Assembly (NCBI RefSeq): GCF_001190945.1
Contig: NZ_CP011112.1
Coordinates: 1,922,001 to 1,986,000 of the forward strand
DNA: 64,000 nt
Reading direction: 5' to 3'
Origin: Luteipulveratus mongoliensis
GTDB lineage: Bacteria; Actinomycetota; Actinomycetes; Actinomycetales; Dermatophilaceae
Shown: in pieces, positions 32,281 to 40,503 of the stretch
Position numbering within the stretch: the first letter of the stretch is position 1
Layout: each line of letters begins with the position of its first letter
Made by a program: the position numbers and the translations under genes
Notes under the pieces: generated by a model
Told to the model about the DNA's origin: nothing
What the model saw: the letters and a program-made list of their open reading frames with translations, nothing else
Database searches by the model: none

Positions 32281-32539
32281 GTCCAGATAGTAGGTCTCAG
32301 GTGATCGACCGTTTGAATCTCATTGTGTAGCAAAGCAATTCGCTTGCGCGACCGAATCGGTGCCTTCGATCGAGTTGCTTCTGCAGCCCCGCCGCACAGC
32401 GGGGTCTCACCGCAGCGCATATCGCGGACCGACGACGGATGCACGTTGATAGTCCGGCGTACGGACCGCACCGCGCGCTGCCACAGCGGTGACGGCTACT
32501 CTCGCGACCATCGGCCTCGCCACGTCAAGGAGCTCCTCC

Positions 32540-33517
32540 ATGCGCGACATCGTGGTCTTTTCCGGGTCCGCCCATCACGCCCTTGCGAGCAGCATCTGCT
32601 CCGCTCTCGGCGTGGGTCTGTCGGCCGTCGACATCAAGCGTTTCAGCAATGACTGCCTGCAGGCTCAGCTGCTGGCCAACTGTCGCCAGCGCGACGTCTA
32701 CATCGTCCAGCCCCTGGTGCCGCCCACCCAGGAGCACCTCATGGAGCTGCTCCTCATGATCGACGCTGCCCGCGGTGCGTCGGCGGCCCAGATCACTGCC
32801 GTCATCCCGCACTACGCGTACGCCCGCTCGGACAAGAAGGACTCCTCCCGCATCTCGCTCGGCGGGCGTCTGGTCGCGGACATGCTGGCCACGGCGGGCG
32901 TCAGCCGGGTGCTGACGATGGCGCTGCACGCGCCTCAGGTGCACGGGTTCTTCTCGGTCCCGGTCGACCACCTGACGGCGATCGGCGTGCTGGCCGACCA
33001 CTTCCGCGGCCGCGACCTCACCGACACGGTCGTGGTCTCACCCGACCTCGGCAACGCCAAGACCGCCACGCAGTTCGCGCGGCTCCTCGGCCTGCCCGTC
33101 GCGGCCGGCAGCAAGCAGCGCAAGGCCGACGACAAGGTCGTCATCGACGCGATCGTGGGTGACGTGTCCGGCCGCCGGGCCATCGTGCTCGACGACGAGA
33201 TCGCCACCGGCGGTTCGGTGATCGAGCTGATGGACCGTCTCAAGGAGTTCGGCTGCACCGATGCCGCGGTCGCGTGCACGCACGGACTGTTCTCCGGTCG
33301 GGCCGTGGAGCGACTGAGCAGTCACCCGATGATCAGCGAGGTCGTCACCACGGACACCGTGCCGGCGCCCGACTGGCCCGAGCTCAAGGTGCGGTCGATC
33401 GCTGACCTGTTCGCCCAGGCGATCGCCCGCATCCACGGGGGCGAGTCCGTCAGCAGCCTGTTCGACGGGGTCGACCCGGCTCACGCCCCGCCGCAGGCGA
33501 CGTTGCCGCTCGGCTGA
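32540..33517 (+). CDS. Ribose-phosphate pyrophosphokinase family protein (Prs-like)
   Basis: This 325-residue protein resembles PRPP synthetase. It starts at the ATG at 32540 behind an AAGGAG site. The PRPP-binding loop is VVLDDEIATGGSV, and the ATP/ribose region includes VQPLVPPTQEHLMELLLMIDA, HYAYARSDKKDSSR and VVSPDLGNAKTA. The first block FSGSAHHALASSIC is more diverged than in housekeeping Prs (FSGN/ANP type), so it may be a secondary homologue. It is followed by the three-gene membrane operon. Confidence 0.84.
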   Translation: MRDIVVFSGSAHHALASSICSALGVGLSAVDIKRFSNDCLQAQLLANCRQRDVYIVQPLVPPTQEHLMELLLMIDAARGASAAQITAVIPHYAYARSDKKDSSRISLGGRLVADMLATAGVSRVLTMALHAPQVHGFFSVPVDHLTAIGVLADHFRGRDLTDTVVVSPDLGNAKTATQFARLLGLPVAAGSKQRKADDKVVIDAIVGDVSGRRAIVLDDEIATGGSVIELMDRLKEFGCTDAAVACTHGLFSGRAVERLSSHPMISEVVTTDTVPAPDWPELKVRSIADLFAQAIARIHGGESVSSLFDGVDPAHAPPQATLPLG

Positions 33518-33574
33518 GCCCAGGCGTACGTCCTCCGCGAGGAACCGTCGTCGCGCGCCTGGCGTCTTGTCACC

Positions 33575-34678
33575 ATGTGGTCTTCGTGGTTCCGCAGCCG
33601 ACACGTGCGCACCGCCGCTGCGCTGCTCGTCCTGCTGGCACTCATCGGCGCGTGGATCGTGCACGTGCAGGTACGTGATCGTCTCAAGGCCGGCGAGAGC
33701 CGCACTGGCGAGTACTCCCTGTCTTCTGACTTCCGCTCGAGCTCGACGTTCGAGCTGCCTGACGGCGGCCTGAGCGTCACCGTCGAGGTCGGCGAGGAAG
33801 CCACGAAGTACGACGACTGGTCGGATCGGACGCGGGTGCGGGCTCCTCGCGGTGGCCGGCTGGTCGAGGTCAGCTGGTCGCCTCAGAGCCGCCAGAGTGA
33901 CCGGACGATCGGGGTCACGCAGCGCCCGAGCAGCCTCAGCCTTCGTTCCGGCGGTCGCACGATCCTGCTGGAGGGCTCGATCGAGCAGTCCGACGACACC
34001 TCCTCCGGCGAGACGAGCAAGGAGCGGCTGGTCGCGGTGCCCGGCGACCTGGCGGATCTCGAGATCGTCGCAGGGTTCGCCGGCCGACAGCAGAGCGTGC
34101 GGGTCCTGACCGGCAAGCGTGAGCTCGGCGACTTCGCGACCCTCTACCGTCCCCGCAGTGACCTGGCGCTGCAGCCCGTGGACGTCGGACCGGACAACGA
34201 CCGATACGTCCGCGGCAACGGTTTTCGGTGGGAGCTCCGGCCGGTCGTCGGCCAGACCAGCCGGAGGCCCTACGTCGAAGGGCTCGGCTGGGCCGCTGCC
34301 GGGCGAGAGTGGTTCGTGGTGCAGGGGTCGGGCTACTACAGCCTCCTGGGCTCCGCCGCCGAGTGGAGCAGTGAGACCGCAACGGCGGACTACAACGCCA
34401 CCCGCGTCACCACCACGGTCACGGCCAACGGCACCCGCCCGAGCCGCACGGTGACGCCGTCCCGCAACCAGCAGGACCCCTCGACCGATCGCGTGATCAG
34501 CGACCTGACCTTCTCGGTCGTCAGTGGCGCCCCGGTCACCCTCAGCACGGTCGTCGACGCACCCCTGACGCGCGATGACCGCCACGGCGCCGAGACCGAG
34601 GCGCCTAAGACCGCCACCCTGCACCGGACCTCCGTACTGGCCTACCCCGGCGTCGTTGACCCACGAAAGGCTTCCTGA
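33575..34678 (+). CDS. Membrane-anchored protein, first of three related genes
   Basis: This 367-residue protein has one N-terminal transmembrane helix (TAAALLVLLALIGAWIVHV) and a large predicted extracellular part. The body has the blocks GGRLVEVSWSPQS, TILLEGSIEQS and PYVEGLGWAAAGREWFVV. The last two recur in the next two genes. No known family is recognised. The gene has no clear ribosome site and starts 57 bases after the prs-like stop. Its TGA shares one base with the ATG of the next gene. Confidence 0.72.
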   Translation: MWSSWFRSRHVRTAAALLVLLALIGAWIVHVQVRDRLKAGESRTGEYSLSSDFRSSSTFELPDGGLSVTVEVGEEATKYDDWSDRTRVRAPRGGRLVEVSWSPQSRQSDRTIGVTQRPSSLSLRSGGRTILLEGSIEQSDDTSSGETSKERLVAVPGDLADLEIVAGFAGRQQSVRVLTGKRELGDFATLYRPRSDLALQPVDVGPDNDRYVRGNGFRWELRPVVGQTSRRPYVEGLGWAAAGREWFVVQGSGYYSLLGSAAEWSSETATADYNATRVTTTVTANGTRPSRTVTPSRNQQDPSTDRVISDLTFSVVSGAPVTLSTVVDAPLTRDDRHGAETEAPKTATLHRTSVLAYPGVVDPRKAS

Positions 34679-35724
34679 TGAGCACCTCGGATGCGGCAAC
34701 GGGCGCCGGGGGTGCCGGCCGACGATGGCAGCTGTGGACGGCCGCCGTCGTACTCCTCGTCCTCGTGGTCGGTGTGGCGACCTGGCGCCTCACCAGGGAC
34801 GACGTCCACATCGGCGACCGGCTGGACAACGCCACGTTCTTCAACGACCAGTCCGAGGATCGGATGATGTCGGTGTCGCTTCCGCTGACCGCTCTGAGCC
34901 TCCAGGTCGGCGTCGGCCGCACGATCGGCCCCTCCGATGACCGGCTCACCGCGCCGGACGGTGCGACCTTCGTCAAGGTGTCCTGGTCGCCGACGACCTA
35001 CAGCGGGACCCCGCCTGTCTGGCCGCTGGCGACGGTGGCTCAGCGGCGCGACCCGGGTTCCGCGCTCGCCCTTGTCGCCGGAGGCCAGCGTTATCCGCTC
35101 GTCACCGGTCTGACGGCCGCCGACCAAGGGTCCTCCGCCGTGGTGGTCGCCAAGGGCGACGGCTCGGACGTACGGATCGAGGCGACGTACGCCGGCCGCA
35201 CCGTCACGTCGACCGTGCGCAGCGAGCCGAGCACGGCGTCCGCCATCAAGCGGCCCTCCCTCGACGCGAATCGTGGTTGCGACGCGGCGCCACCGGACAC
35301 GTTCTTGTGGGTCTCGTGCACCGTCCGCTTCCACCGCGGCCTCTATGTGCCCGGACTCGGCGCGGCTCCGGCCGGTCAGGAGTGGCTCCTGGTCCACAGC
35401 AGCTCGGCGTCCCGCAAGGAGGACCGGGCCAGGCAGTACAAGAATCATCAAGGTGCGGAGTACCTGCCGTCCGGGCCTGCATCGTTCACGGTCTCCGTCG
35501 GCTCCGCGGCGCCTGCGCGTCAGGTCGGCCGCGATGTCGTGTCCGGCGATCGCGTACGACTCGCTGACCGGGCCTTCCTCGTGCCGGCCGGGAAGCCCGT
35601 CGCGATCCGCACCCGCTACCGCCTGCCCATGACGCTGGACGCCGAGCGCAGCGAGTGGAAGTCGGCGCCGAAGACCTACCTGATCGATGTCGGGTCCTCC
35701 GGGACCTACACGGACGTCGAGTAG
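34678..35724 (+). CDS. Membrane-anchored protein, second of three related genes
   Basis: This 348-residue protein has an N-terminal transmembrane segment near residues 20-38 (WTAAVVLLVLVVGVATWRL) and an extracellular body. It shares the blocks FVKVSWSPTTYSGTPP and LYVPGLGAAPAGQEWLLV with the flanking genes. It has two cysteines (NRGCDAAPP and FLWVSCTVRF), unlike the first paralogue, which has none in this region. It starts on the TGATG overlap with the first gene, so the two are coupled. Confidence 0.72.
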   Translation: MSTSDAATGAGGAGRRWQLWTAAVVLLVLVVGVATWRLTRDDVHIGDRLDNATFFNDQSEDRMMSVSLPLTALSLQVGVGRTIGPSDDRLTAPDGATFVKVSWSPTTYSGTPPVWPLATVAQRRDPGSALALVAGGQRYPLVTGLTAADQGSSAVVVAKGDGSDVRIEATYAGRTVTSTVRSEPSTASAIKRPSLDANRGCDAAPPDTFLWVSCTVRFHRGLYVPGLGAAPAGQEWLLVHSSSASRKEDRARQYKNHQGAEYLPSGPASFTVSVGSAAPARQVGRDVVSGDRVRLADRAFLVPAGKPVAIRTRYRLPMTLDAERSEWKSAPKTYLIDVGSSGTYTDVE

Positions 35725-35741
35725 CCCTACAGTCCGATCCC

Positions 35742-36830
35742 ATGTCGTCCTCCCCTGAGCCATCCGTACGTCGCACGCGAGTCGCGCTGCTGGCTGGGCT
35801 GGCCGTCGTCGTGCTTGCGGCAGTCGCCGCACTGGGCGCGTGGTCGGTCCTGAAGGATCGTGCCGAGGCCGGTCAGGTGATCCGCGGCGGTCTCACAGAC
35901 GTCTCGGGCCGCTCCCGGCCGGTGCTGCTGCCTCTCGGACAGGTCGACGTCACGGTCAGTGAGCCGGTCGAGTCCGTGCCTGAGGGAGCGTCTGTCGATG
36001 CTCCGCGTGCGCCGTGGGGCGGCAGCTTCGTCGGTGTGAGCTGGGAGACGGGCTACATGGGCGGCTTCCCGACCTGGGCCACCGTGCCGCTGGGGATGGC
36101 GCCTGTGCAGCCGCACGTGCACCTCGTCGTCGGCGGTCATCGCTACCCCGTGCCGGGAGCGAGCGGCGGCGACATCGTCGGTCGGCGCAAGGAGACCATC
36201 CACGGTGAGGGGAAGGCGTGGATCGCCGTCGACGGCGAGCCCAAGCAGCCGGTCATCGAGATCGAGTACGACGGTGTCACGCAGCGCGTGGACATCGCCA
36301 CCGGTCGACGTGAGTCGGGTCGGGCTGCGCCGCTGTACTCCCTGGATCGTCAAGGCGCCCACTTCCGGACCTGCCCGGCGCCCCGGATCAGTGGCCTCGG
36401 CGGTGTGCTGTCGGTGGACGCGAAGTGCGGGGTCGCGACACCGCTGCGACTGCCGTACGTCTCGGGCCTGGGTTGGGCGAAGCCCGGCCGTGAGTGGGCG
36501 GTCATCAACGCATCCGTGTCGTTGCCGAGCGATGGGGAGTGGCGTGCCGCGGCCGGCTCCGGCCCGGCCGCTGACTACGACCTGGAGCCGGTGAGCACGA
36601 CGTTCACTCTCGACGGTCGAGCGCCGCGACCCACGCCCGAGCTCAAGGACGCGGCGTTCGACGCCACGCGTGGCACCGGCTCGGTGGTTTTCGACGTGCC
36701 CGTGAACGGCACGGGCACGCTGCGGATCATGCAGCGGGCGCGGGCCGAGCTCGACGACGTGAACGGCGCACGGCCGCCCCAGAGCGATGCGTCGATCATC
36801 CTCGACCGGGCGATGACGCTCGCACCTTGA
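35742..36830 (+). CDS. Membrane-anchored protein, third of three related genes
   Basis: This 362-residue protein begins at the ATG at 35742, 17 bases after the second gene. It has an N-terminal transmembrane helix (ALLAGLAVVVLAAVAALGAW) and an extracellular body with FVGVSWETGYMGGFP and LPYVSGLGWAKPGREWAVI, matching the other two. It carries two cysteines (FRTCPAPR and DAKCGVAT). The gene ends convergently with a quinone-oxidoreductase-like gene. No function is known to me. Confidence 0.72.
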   Translation: MSSSPEPSVRRTRVALLAGLAVVVLAAVAALGAWSVLKDRAEAGQVIRGGLTDVSGRSRPVLLPLGQVDVTVSEPVESVPEGASVDAPRAPWGGSFVGVSWETGYMGGFPTWATVPLGMAPVQPHVHLVVGGHRYPVPGASGGDIVGRRKETIHGEGKAWIAVDGEPKQPVIEIEYDGVTQRVDIATGRRESGRAAPLYSLDRQGAHFRTCPAPRISGLGGVLSVDAKCGVATPLRLPYVSGLGWAKPGREWAVINASVSLPSDGEWRAAAGSGPAADYDLEPVSTTFTLDGRAPRPTPELKDAAFDATRGTGSVVFDVPVNGTGTLRIMQRARAELDDVNGARPPQSDASIILDRAMTLAP

Positions 36831-36845
36831 GGCGGCCGACCGCGC

Positions 36846-37763
36846 TCACGGCACGAGCACGTAGCGGCCCCTGACGCCGCCCGCCGCAACCTTGTCCAGC
36901 GCGACCGCGACATCGGCCAGCGGCACGGTCGCGTGCACACGGGTCGGCAGCGTGCCCGCCACAGTGAGGTCGAGCAGCCGCTGCTGCCGCGCACGATCCG
37001 CGTGCACCTTGACCGCCGCGGTCGTGATCCCGCGTACGGAGGCGGGGACGTTCGCAGGCACCACGCCGACGTAGTGACCGCCGTCCCGCACCACGGCGAG
37101 GACCGGGTCGACGAGTGCAGCGGCATCGAAGGCCGCATCGACCGACGACACCTCGTCCACGGAGGCGATCGGTCGGGCGCCGGCGTCTGCCACCGCGTCG
37201 CGGTCGGACTCCCGTGCCAGCCCGACGACCTCCCAGCCGGCCAAGACGGCGAGACGGACGGCGTACTCGCCCACGGCGCCCGCGGCGCCCGTGACGAGCA
37301 GGGTGCGGCCATCGGCCTCGCCCAGCAGGTCCAGCGCCTGGTCCGCGGTGAGTGAGTTCATCGGAACCGTTGCGGCCGCGACGAGATCCAGCTCTTCGGG
37401 TACGACGACCGCGGCCTCCGCGGGGACCAGGACCTGGTCGGCGTACGGCCCCGTAGCGTGGTCGAGGCCCTCGTGCAGTGCGGCGACGCGCGTCCCGACC
37501 GCCAGTTCCGGGTGCTCGCGGGCCGCGTCGGCACCGACAGCGGTGATCCGGCCGGCGATGTCCCAGCCCAGGCCGGTGTGCTCCGGCTGGTCGATCCAGC
37601 CGATGCTGTGGAAGAAGCCCGAGACCACCATCAGGTCGACGGGGTTGACCGTCGCCCCTTCGACCGCGATGCGGATCTCGTGCGGTGCGGGTTCGGGAGT
37701 GGCGACCTCGATCACCTCGACCGAGGCGTCGGGGCCGGGAGTACGGACGACGGCTGCGCGCAT
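36846..37763 (-). CDS. Zinc-independent NADP-dependent alcohol dehydrogenase/quinone reductase
   Basis: This 305-residue medium-chain dehydrogenase-like protein has the Rossmann motif LLVTGAAGAVGEYAV near residue 145 and an N-terminal GroES-like fold with IRIAVEGATVNPVDL. It lacks the catalytic-zinc Cys/His set, so it belongs to the quinone-oxidoreductase group. The ATG at 37763 follows a GGAG site, better than the ATG nine codons upstream. It is divergent from the HxlR-type gene, with an inverted repeat between. Confidence 0.88.
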   Translation of the reverse strand: MRAAVVRTPGPDASVEVIEVATPEPAPHEIRIAVEGATVNPVDLMVVSGFFHSIGWIDQPEHTGLGWDIAGRITAVGADAAREHPELAVGTRVAALHEGLDHATGPYADQVLVPAEAAVVVPEELDLVAAATVPMNSLTADQALDLLGEADGRTLLVTGAAGAVGEYAVRLAVLAGWEVVGLARESDRDAVADAGARPIASVDEVSSVDAAFDAAALVDPVLAVVRDGGHYVGVVPANVPASVRGITTAAVKVHADRARQQRLLDLTVAGTLPTRVHATVPLADVAVALDKVAAGGVRGRYVLVP

Positions 37764-37809
37764 GACTGCTCCTTCGTGAATGGATGACATGGCGGCTACT
37801 CTGAGTCAG

Positions 37810-37844
37810 GCACTCTCTCGTGGGAAGTAGGCACCTGAGAGTGC
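37810..37844. promoter_or_regulatory. Probable HxlR operator, inverted repeat
   Basis: GCACTCTC at 37810-37817 and its reverse complement GAGAGTGC at 37837-37844 form a perfect 8-base inverted repeat with 19 bases between. AGGCAC also recurs as a direct repeat (37808 and 37829). The site lies between the divergent oxidoreductase and HxlR starts, so it is a likely binding site for the regulator. Confidence 0.6.
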
Positions 37845-37866
37845 GTAACCAACGCAAGGGGATGTG

Positions 37867-38268
37867 ATGGCCACCAAGACCGCCGCTCGCCGCCGCACCG
37901 AGGCCAAGGTCGAGTACGACGCGTTCATGGCCGCGTGCAAGAGCCGTCAGCTGCTCGACCGGCTCACGGACAAGTGGGTGACGCTGGTGATCAGTGCGCT
38001 CAGCGAGCGGGACATGCGCTACTCCGAGCTGTCGCGCCGGGTCGCCGGCGTCAGCCAGAAGATGCTGACCCAGACGCTGCGCAACCTCGAGCGCGACGGT
38101 CTCGTGACGCGCACCGTCACGGCCACCGTGCCGGTCACGGTCGACTACGCCCTGACCGACCTCGGAGGCTCGCTGCACACGGTTGTTCAGCACCTCAAGG
38201 ACTGGGCCGAGGACAACATGGACGACGTACTGGCCGCCCGGGAGGCGCACGACCGGCGTACGGCCTGA
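37867..38268 (+). CDS. HxlR family transcriptional regulator
   Basis: This 133-residue winged-helix regulator has the HxlR core: a cysteine near the start (MAACKSRQLLDRLTDKWV), then MRYSELSRRVAGVSQKMLTQTLRNL with the recognition helix, and the wing GLVTRTVTATVPVTVDYAL. The conserved Cys may sense redox or electrophile stress, as in related YodB/QorR proteins. It probably regulates the divergent quinone-oxidoreductase gene. The start is the ATG at 37867; a GTG at 37864 is adjacent. Confidence 0.88.
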   Translation: MATKTAARRRTEAKVEYDAFMAACKSRQLLDRLTDKWVTLVISALSERDMRYSELSRRVAGVSQKMLTQTLRNLERDGLVTRTVTATVPVTVDYALTDLGGSLHTVVQHLKDWAEDNMDDVLAAREAHDRRTA

Positions 38269-38298
38269 CCGGGGAGCGCCTCCTGATCGCGAGACGCT

Positions 38299-38325
38299 CT
38301 GGCACTCGAGTTGACCGAGTGCTAA
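38299..38325 (+). promoter_or_regulatory. CIRCE element (HrcA operator), upstream copy
   Basis: CTGGCACTC at 38299-38307, nine bases, then GAGTGCTAA at 38317-38325 match the CIRCE inverted repeat (TTAGCACTC-N9-GAGTGCTAA) with two mismatches on the left arm. It overlaps a -35-like TTGACC at 38311-38316, with TAGATT at 38334-38339 17 bases later. HrcA bound here would block the groES promoter. Confidence 0.88.
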
Positions 38326-38344
38326 TCGCGACTTAGATTCGGAC

Positions 38345-38371
38345 TTGGCACTCGCCTGGGGCAAGTGCCAG
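38345..38371 (+). promoter_or_regulatory. Second CIRCE-like element
   Basis: TTGGCACTC at 38345-38353, nine bases, then AAGTGCCAG at 38363-38371 form a second CIRCE-like inverted repeat 46 bases after the first (centre to centre). The arms depart from consensus in the same positions but keep the N9 spacer. Two operators suggest tighter HrcA repression. Confidence 0.75.
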
Positions 38372-38492
38372 CCACGGTACGAGCACCGACCCCCGCGACG
38401 GCGGCGCTCGTGACCAGCCGGCACGACCCAGGCGTCACGTATCCACACCTGCCCGTCTGGGCAGGCCTTTCACGCATAAGGAAGGTCACACC

Positions 38493-38786
38493 GTGTCGGT
38501 GAACATCAAGCCGCTCGAGGACCGCATCGTGGTCAAGTCGGTCGAGGCCGAGCAGACGACGGCGTCCGGTCTCGTCATCCCGGACACTGCCAAGGAGAAG
38601 CCCCAGGAGGGCGAGGTCCTGGCCATCGGTCCGGGTCGCATCGACGACAACGGCCAGCGCGTCCCGCTCGATGTCGCGGTCGGCGACAAGGTCATCTACA
38701 GCAAGTACGGCGGCACTGAGGTCAAGTACGCCGGCGAGGAGCTGCTCATCCTCTCGGCCCGCGACGTGCTCGCGGTCCTCGCCTGA
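38493..38786 (+). CDS. groES: Co-chaperonin GroES
   Basis: GroES caps the GroEL chamber during protein folding. The 97-residue protein shows the family start [18 protein letters not shown], the mobile loop [12 protein letters not shown] and [16 protein letters not shown]. An AAGGAAGGT-like site precedes the GTG start at 38493. Two CIRCE elements lie upstream and groEL lies 106 bases downstream. Confidence 0.97.

Positions 38787-38871: not shown

Positions 38872-40503
<1,632 letters not shown>

Follow-up and report, generated by a model that had tools for sequence, protein, structure and literature searches.

Introduction

Among described systems, the one whose layout comes closest to the locus reported here is TipC, the immunity protein of the type VII toxin TelC in Streptococcus and its relatives (PMC6193138). 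Bacteria that bear tipC are reported mostly to carry several paralogs, four of them adjacent in one species, and only the first paralog bound the toxin in the two species tested (PMC6193138). Here we describe three tandem genes, P1, P2 and P3, that encode membrane-anchored paralogs in a 64,000-nucleotide stretch of DNA from Luteipulveratus mongoliensis (contig NZ_CP011112.1, positions 1,922,001 to 1,986,000 of the forward strand; hereafter the window). TipC and, by prediction, the window proteins each possess one N-terminal membrane segment, a soluble domain outside the membrane and several diverged neighbouring paralogs. TipC is an alpha/beta protein encoded in operons with telC, whereas the P2 model is all beta and the genes here occur as coupled pairs.

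Comparison of the window with related genomes indicates that P1 and P2 represent two types of gene, A and B, that recur as a pair. We consider it fairly probable that the two proteins are halves of one membrane-anchored A-B heterocomplex.

Results

The A-B pair is the repeated unit

An earlier note on this DNA had described three paralogous open reading frames (ORFs) at 33575-36830, each with one N-terminal helix and joined by a TGATG overlap and a 17-base gap. All of this is borne out. The three proteins are homologous by BLASTP (4e-18 and 30% identity for P1/P2, 4e-15 and 28% for P1/P3, 3e-8 and 34% of 185 columns for P2/P3), and each contains a single strongly hydrophobic segment, near the N terminus (Kyte-Doolittle maxima of 2.34, 2.04 and 2.73 in P1, P2 and P3), the later maxima being lower (1.33, 1.07 and 0.94). 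The coordinates confirm that P1 and P2 share one base in TGATG and that 17 bases separate P2 from P3. All three genes are intact, and a search of their own genome with residues 1-308 of P1 as the query returned only P1, P2 and P3. Their GC content (0.70-0.71, against 0.66-0.70 in the surroundings) gives no sign of foreign DNA. The conserved blocks proposed for the three proteins hold in part: P1 and P2 contain VSWSP but P3 reads VSWE, and the second block is found in all three as YVEGLGWAAAGREW, YVPGLGAAPAGQEW and YVSGLGWAKPGREW, though P2 has GLGA rather than GLGW.

The expectation that the A-B-C triplet is conserved as a unit fails. In the window's family, 11 genomes carry at least two neighbouring genes of this kind, whether whole or broken (G000, G001, G021, G026, G130, G131 and G144-G148, in our own numbering), and none of the others has the triplet; the common unit is an A-B pair. 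P1 falls in the A clade and P2 in the B clade, with support of 97/97 for A and 99/99 for B in one tree and of 88/88 and 100/99 in another. The A clade spans three genera (with the broken A gene of G026 left out) and the B clade four, and the A/B split is thus older than these genera, as the earlier note had supposed in calling the divergence old. Flexivirga endophytica (G130; Dermacoccaceae in NCBI's taxonomy) has the order A-B-A-B, and G021 has A-B-A-B-A-B with a tandem period of 2.2 kb, which equals one A plus one B. G131 begins with a C-like gene, the nearest approach to the A-B-C arrangement although here it is placed before the pairs, and continues with alternating A and B genes to about 12 in all, one B being broken. 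The locus of G026 is a single A-B pair whose first gene is broken by two frame changes, and that of G001 is an A gene followed by a truncated B. Copy number per locus is 2, 3, 4, 6 or about 12 genes, or 0 to about 5 pairs. The extra G021 pairs are lineage copies, while the pairs of G131 and G130 fall into shared subtypes.

Genes dropped before tree building as cut or broken were G143, the second gene of G001, the first gene of G026, the broken B of G131 and a contig-end gene of G146, together with all but one of the duplicates on contig 6 of G131. The end of G131 contig C1 (L056) and the start of C6 (L057) carry the same array stretch, with a first gene that differs by a frame change; this has the look of contigs that overlap in the assembly, not of a duplicated stretch. 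The six G021 genes (L019, 5047-11623) have a third-position GC of 0.69-0.73, compared with 0.76-0.84 for the other ORFs there.

The two genes of a pair overlap. In the window's family, A and B overlap by exactly 4 bases at 14 of the 15 scored first-second junctions, the fifteenth being the window's own, with 1 base. A second family shows the same 4-base overlap in 12 of 13 scored pairs from the loci fetched (26 of 28 over both families); for two of the 12 (G974 and G996), the start codon that gives the overlap was taken instead of the one chosen automatically. Pair-to-pair junctions vary, at 69, 70, 134, 45, 5 and -14 bases.

Divergence of A mirrors divergence of B

Distances between A proteins mirror those between their B partners (r=0.916, 10 pairs, reached in 0 of 5000 permutations; G001, G026 and the G131 pair whose B gene is broken were omitted). 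When G130 and G131 are considered alone, the real pairing is the only one of 720 to reach its r, and when only G131 is permuted, the only one of 24. A second type of pair gives a similar result (r=0.910, 14 pairs, 0 of 5000 permutations). The mirrored distances and the uniquely best real pairing argue that pairs are copied whole and that partners are not reassorted. Between species, shared descent alone would yield such a mirror; within G131 the comparison shows that pairs move as units.

In a quick tree, the second pair type is common to g173, a genus of family f45, and to g39, a genus of the window's family. Groupings that relate the g39 pair to the A-B pair gave approximately unbiased test values (p-AU) of 0.056-0.22 over four arrangements. 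The 70-row tree came from a quick search with only the Shimodaira-Hasegawa-like approximate likelihood ratio test (SH-aLRT) for support, contains 25 open forks and two long branches that meet, and includes 32 of 45 listed rows; it needs 6 changes per position label, 3-4 of them forced by starred branches. The pair arrangement may have arisen more than once; its forms are the A-B pair described here, the second type, which genera of two families share, and pairs whose first gene is lipoprotein-like. One g39 genome, G142 (L070, 7365-8651), has a TetR gene and what we take to be a DUF2200-like gene adjacent with no pair between them, whereas these genes flank the pair in other g39 genomes; the site is a natural empty site.

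P3 and its single-copy relatives

Among the loci compared, the best match of P3 is the first gene of the G131 array, which lies on the other side of its pairs (33%, 8e-23). Tree tests gave p-AU 0.5 for P3 grouped with that gene and 0.069 for P3 within A, so that the tree leaves a clade of the two neither demonstrated nor rejected. P3 retains both a TG-x-x-x-x-G-x-AA-x-LY segment and a cysteine pair, as do many single-copy relatives, while P1 lacks the cysteines and P2 lacks the segment; P3 would accordingly seem the least changed of the three.

Single-copy relatives occur across the Actinomycetes (L168, L170, L171 and L065, for example). They belong to the same family by profile, have a lipobox-like or helical start, and share with the window proteins an alignable body, a cysteine pair and a motif of the Y-x-x-G-x-G/E-W-A type; they differ in standing alone, outside A-B pairs, and in that several are lipoprotein-like. 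Outside the pairs, copies in the wider family are single, and lipobox-like starts were seen by eye in several of them. Two genomes (L188 and L189) have a common island in which two single family members flank uncharacterised genes of about 500 residues, about 1,300 residues (two overlapping ORFs in L189), about 330 residues and 475-477 residues, the last with SVGAYSSLIAAAAAKNELLH near its start. The single-copy, lipoprotein-like relative in G065 (L022, 2856-9022) carries additional N-terminal sequence and has an FtsK/SpoIIIE gene and a prepilin peptidase gene nearby, a neighbourhood that suggests an integrated element. A mobile-element origin of the arrays was considered and set aside; no neighbours of this type (FtsK-like, prepilin peptidase) were seen beside them.

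Array proteins change fast

Between the window and its congener G001, the A proteins are 35% identical, whereas GroEL is 95% and TrkH 62% identical. Whole-length ratios of nonsynonymous to synonymous substitution (dN/dS, by NG86) are 0.27-0.81 for array genes over 17 comparisons; for neighbouring genes, seven comparisons gave 0.11-0.22 and three (two of TrkH and one of TrkA) gave 0.47-0.59. The array proteins change much faster than the adjacent groEL or prs products. A few short segments have dN equal to or above dS. The DNA of the 5' end and anchor is clearly more alike than that of the body in about 6 of 14 paralog comparisons, most strongly between two G131 A genes (84-93% versus 50-79%).

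Distribution of the family

The earlier note did not recognise the family, and databases give it no name either. Neither Pfam nor NCBIfam returned anything for P1-P3 at cut-off, weak matches being scattered (22 family members were also run against Pfam), and PADLOC-DB returned 0 families at E<=1, so that by match none of the three is a known anti-phage defence protein. PHROGs gave one weak stretch in P3 (E 0.0021), to an entry of unknown function. A literature search over open-licence papers found no paper on the family among the matches listed, which is weak evidence of absence.

The profile searches scored only part of the candidates in each genome (5 or 6 of dozens in the order and class samples, 10 in the window's family and 14 in g173, for example), and positive counts are therefore lower bounds and absences not firm. 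At least 19 of 186 genomes of the window's family have a match at E<=0.001. Besides the 11 genomes with adjacent genes, G143 has a single copy at a contig end; weak matches in G039 and G142 (E 2.6e-5 and 2.7e-4) were discounted as members, being in pieces or antisense to other genes. Order-level samples gave matches in at least 5 of 297 genomes with alignment A2 and at least 17 of 396 with A3, many of the latter weak. In the class-level sample at least 21 of 394 genomes matched, and nine of these, with most of the strong matches, belong to g173. Several class and order matches at E above 1e-5 that cover only the anchor or a short stretch were left uncounted. Presence is patchy, most genomes searched having no match.

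We define a family of R-x-x-Y-V-x-G-L-G-W-A-x-x-G-x-x-W proteins by a profile match along most of the chain; P1-P3 belong to it, and the profile recovered relatives in the window's family and in the class. The N-terminal anchor was assessed by hydropathy in 32 listed members, with lipobox-like starts recognised by eye, and the beta-rich body appears in the models, which cover P2 and P3. A scan of genome contigs with the B alignment recovered one locus, in Flexivirga endophytica, that holds all four G130 proteins unchanged; the same scan with P3 as a single protein found nothing.

Models predict a beta-rich body behind the anchor

An AlphaFold2 model of P2 built from seven sequences (mean predicted local distance difference test score, pLDDT, 79; predicted template modelling score 0.69) consists of a helix at 14-40 and two beta domains joined by a loose linker. 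The P3 model (mean pLDDT 66) has a similar order of elements. Foldseek found no match in the PDB at E<=0.001, with template modelling scores near 0.1-0.2 among the matches listed, and a viral structure library gave nothing useful. With VIA-align, the best match of P2 has Z 6.9 (3fbq, 120 residues, 5.0 A), followed by 5.1 and lower, and that of the P3 model has Z 7.9 at the head of a flat list at about 7-8, mostly immunoglobulin (Ig) chains; such values are common according to the tool, the lack of other families in these lists carries no information, and the first beta domain is barely covered by the comparison. The second beta domain bears a middling likeness to generic Ig-like beta sandwiches (constant domains of antigen-binding fragments, PD-L1) and to 3fbq, with no sequence relation found, Z under 8 and no function implied.

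Two further ideas about the body were rejected. By sequence, the two halves are not detectably repeats of one domain (hhalign probability 0.8%, against 0.6% for the best of 40 column shuffles). DUF4352 (PF11611), which we take to comprise telokin-like, MPT63-like Ig domains, shares by eye an extracytoplasmic beta domain with 'G-x-F/Y-V-x-V' and 'F-x-V-P' strands in similar places, and was considered as the identity of both blocks, that is, the same strand of two tandem domains. It is absent from the Pfam matches of P1-P3 at E<=10, and its hhalign probabilities of 1.2% and 3.5%, while above those of 60 column shuffles each (best 0.65% and 0.38%), are far from significant. A PF11611 search of the window's own genome gave two matches, both elsewhere than P1-P3.

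Genomic neighbourhood and the groES-groEL linkage

Features of the locus are collected in Table 1. Flank gene lists throughout come from a simple ORF picker read by eye, which missed some array genes.

Table 1. Positions in the window of the array genes, their conserved blocks and flanking features.
Feature	Position	Strand	Remarks
P1, A-type gene	33575..34678	+	367 residues; hydrophobic N-terminal helix at about residues 13-31; long C-terminal body; no cysteine
P2, B-type gene	34678..35724	+	348 residues; helix 14-40; beta domains at about 48-178 and 208-344, loose linker; cysteines 201 and 214
P3, C-type gene	35742..36830	+	362 residues; third, solitary paralog; TG..G.AA.LY segment and cysteine pair both kept
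VEVSWSP block, P1	33863..33883	+	Residues 97-103; coordinates by arithmetic
YVEGLGWAAAGREW block, P1	34271..34312	+	Residues 233-246; lies in the ten-residue stretch with the highest conservation in the A clade (0.69)
TGATG, A stop/B start	34676..34680	+	One base common to both genes; relatives mostly have a 4-base overlap (ATGA/GTGA)
VKVSWSP block, P2	34972..34992	+	Residues 99-105; modelled largely as part of a strand in the first beta domain
YVPGLGAAPAGQEW block, P2	35344..35385	+	Residues 223-236
VGVSWE block, P3	36030..36047	+	Residues 97-102
YVSGLGWAKPGREW block, P3	36456..36497	+	Residues 239-252
prs-like gene (ribose-phosphate pyrophosphokinase-like)	32489..33517	+	Flank; no evidence of belonging to the system
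GCACTC-N9-GAGTGC inverted repeat	38302..38322	+	Flank; upstream of groES, downstream of the array
groES	38493-38786	+	Flank; with groEL, the neighbour common to arrays of two families
groEL	38893-40503	+	Flank

In the window the prs-like gene is followed by the array, a convergent alcohol-dehydrogenase/quinone-oxidoreductase (QOR)-like gene with an HxlR regulator, and then groES and groEL. The earlier note proposed to look for the triplet beside prs-like genes in other genomes. Arrays do adjoin a prs-like gene in G130 and G131, but this link is local, and groES-groEL is the neighbour with the broader association. No prs gene adjoins the arrays of G021 and g39, for which reason a prs-specific link was rejected.

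The array lies about 0.2 kb upstream of groES in G001, G130 and G131, 1.7 kb upstream with two genes between in the window, and about 4.4 kb away in G026. In the g173 sample, at least 60 of 147 genomes have one or more copies at E<=1e-6 (at most six; 118 matches in total), and in 15 of these 60, counted from coordinates, a same-strand copy lies no more than about 1.6 kb upstream of groES (G604, G963, G1016, G980, G985, G720, G906, G1019, G993, G996, G904, G987, G734, G533 and G1009). Chance expectation is far below one among 60, by a rough estimate (118 copies x 1.6 kb in 4.5 Mb) made with no control gene. In G942 a copy lies about 3 kb from groES in the opposite direction. G002, G029 and G005 have groESL with no array there, and other genomes hold unrelated genes in the interval. 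The site upstream of groES (window 33517-38493; L020, L102, L103, L105, L106, L107 and L108) varies between genomes, containing an array, a QOR+HxlR cassette, TrkH/TrkA, an ATP-binding cassette transporter, short-chain dehydrogenase or TetR genes, or nothing; the array precedes the QOR/HxlR cassette in G000 and follows it in G001. In our reading, the region upstream of groESL is an old home site from which the array has often been lost; the location does not prove a job shared with the chaperonin. The inverted repeat upstream of groES is presumably the core of CIRCE (controlling inverted repeat of chaperone expression), and groES therefore probably has its own control.

Discussion

At sequence level we observe paralogy, one hydrophobic helix per protein, a start-stop overlap, duplication of the pair as a unit with matched divergence, and, further, variable copy number, patchy presence, fast change and repeated location upstream of groESL. 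In the heterocomplex that we favour, each chain would cross the membrane by one helix, with a short end in the cytoplasm and a beta-rich body outside (two domains in the P2 model). Because the A stop overlaps the B start, A and B are probably made together in a fixed ratio; they would be neighbours in the membrane, their bodies turned outward to form one complex. Mutual binding of A and B and their outward orientation are inferred. P3 would be a related, more ancestral-looking chain encoded behind the pair, and may join the complex or act alone. The earlier proposal that the three proteins form parts of one extracellular assembly is retained to the extent that they are likely components of one extracytoplasmic complex; the triplet as its unit is not. 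The pair is the unit that is copied, moved, lost and rewritten, with A and B changing as matched partners.

Copy-number change, patchy presence, rapid partner-matched change and occasional broken copies would suit recognition in a contest with other cells, toxins or phages, and a role in recognition or immunity is plausible. That the complex recognises a changing target (a competitor's toxin, a phage or a neighbouring cell), and that extra diverged pairs broaden its repertoire, is a tentative suggestion that we think may well be wrong. The same caution applies to a wider proposal, that actinobacteria possess an undescribed recognition system on the membrane's outer face. Its units would be obligate pairs of chains, the ectodomains of each pair diversifying in step with one another; the pair arrangement may have arisen more than once, and the repertoire may be enlarged by tandem copying of whole pairs, often upstream of groES-groEL.

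Several observations count against the heterocomplex and its proposed role. Simple co-inheritance of an operon also produces gene overlap and co-divergence; overlaps of four bases are frequent in bacterial operons, and our overlap counts stand without a control set of other gene pairs. The G963 pair has no overlap, with a gap of 48 bases. P3 has neither an overlap nor a fixed place, and many relatives are single genes, so that a partner need not be required by every member. All 17 whole-length dN/dS values are below 1, which indicates fast change but does not demonstrate positive selection, and the TrkH/TrkA values approach the lower end of the array range. The pattern of a constant anchor and a variable body is confined to about 6 of the 14 paralog comparisons, the other 8 being flat or reversed, and across genera B is least conserved in its helix (0.27, against 0.39 in strands and 0.33 in loops). 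The window and G130 arrays contain no repeats of 40 bases or longer. No copy was found in plasmids (queried with P3 and P2), phages (P1) or viral contigs (B alignment). None of the arrays read has a recognised toxin gene beside it (neighbours inspected by eye, with Pfam for some), and PADLOC gave no match.

One rival idea is that the arrays are extracytoplasmic immunity loci, in which each pair or protein neutralises a toxin from competing Gram-positive bacteria and extra diverged copies, by a further inferential step, are orphan immunity genes directed at variants of rivals' toxins. The layout does resemble that of TipC, which has a membrane segment at its N terminus, an inhibitory domain that lies in the inner zone of the wall, and several paralogs, and the arrays are tandem, diverged, patchy and fast-changing with some copies broken. 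A cognate secreted toxin in the operon, a TipC-like trait, was recognised neither beside the window genes nor, by eye, beside the relatives' arrays; repeated groESL linkage is unlike a mobile immunity island; the soluble domain of TipC comprises three helices and a seven-stranded sheet, while the P2 model is all beta outside the membrane; and we know of no immunity genes that occur as coupled pairs. We regard this explanation as rather unlikely, and give similarly limited credence to a ligand-binding or adhesive surface protein whose beta domains bind a glycan, a peptide or the neighbouring cell wall, its variation following the ligand with no arms race. The two beta domains of the P2 model, the second with a weak Ig-like resemblance, the single-copy lipoprotein-like relatives across the class and the somewhat better conservation of strands than of loops would suit such a protein; the fold matches are nevertheless middling, no ligand site is recognisable, and no transporter or sortase gene is common to the neighbourhoods seen.

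The place just upstream of groES in two families could also be explained by a role in envelope stress or surface folding tied to the chaperonin operon, as the 15 g173 genomes and G001, G130 and G131 might suggest. We judge this improbable: 45 of the 60 positive g173 genomes have no groES-linked copy, G021 and the g39 genomes have the array elsewhere, groES has its own CIRCE-like repeat downstream of the array, some genomes have groESL without an array or with unrelated genes in the interval, and the site may simply be tolerant, proximity having been scored with no control gene. Least credible of all are decaying duplicates with little or no function. Although copies are broken or truncated in G001, G026 and G131 and most genomes searched have no match, dN stays below dS over the whole length in every comparison (equalled or reversed in a few short segments), dozens of copies have kept their length, overlap and motif, and the window genes are undamaged. 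All of these readings overlap with the claim of an A-B heterocomplex.

Where fast-changing surface proteins are encoded in tandem arrays, a contest with toxins, phages or neighbours is often involved. Here the repeated unit is a coupled pair instead of a single gene, in a family unnamed by Pfam, NCBIfam and PADLOC that is common in one large genus (g173). Should the partners prove to bind each other as well as a changing target, the pairs would offer a natural set for studying the co-evolution of two interacting chains, and would provide a lead to an actinobacterial competition or defence system not yet known.

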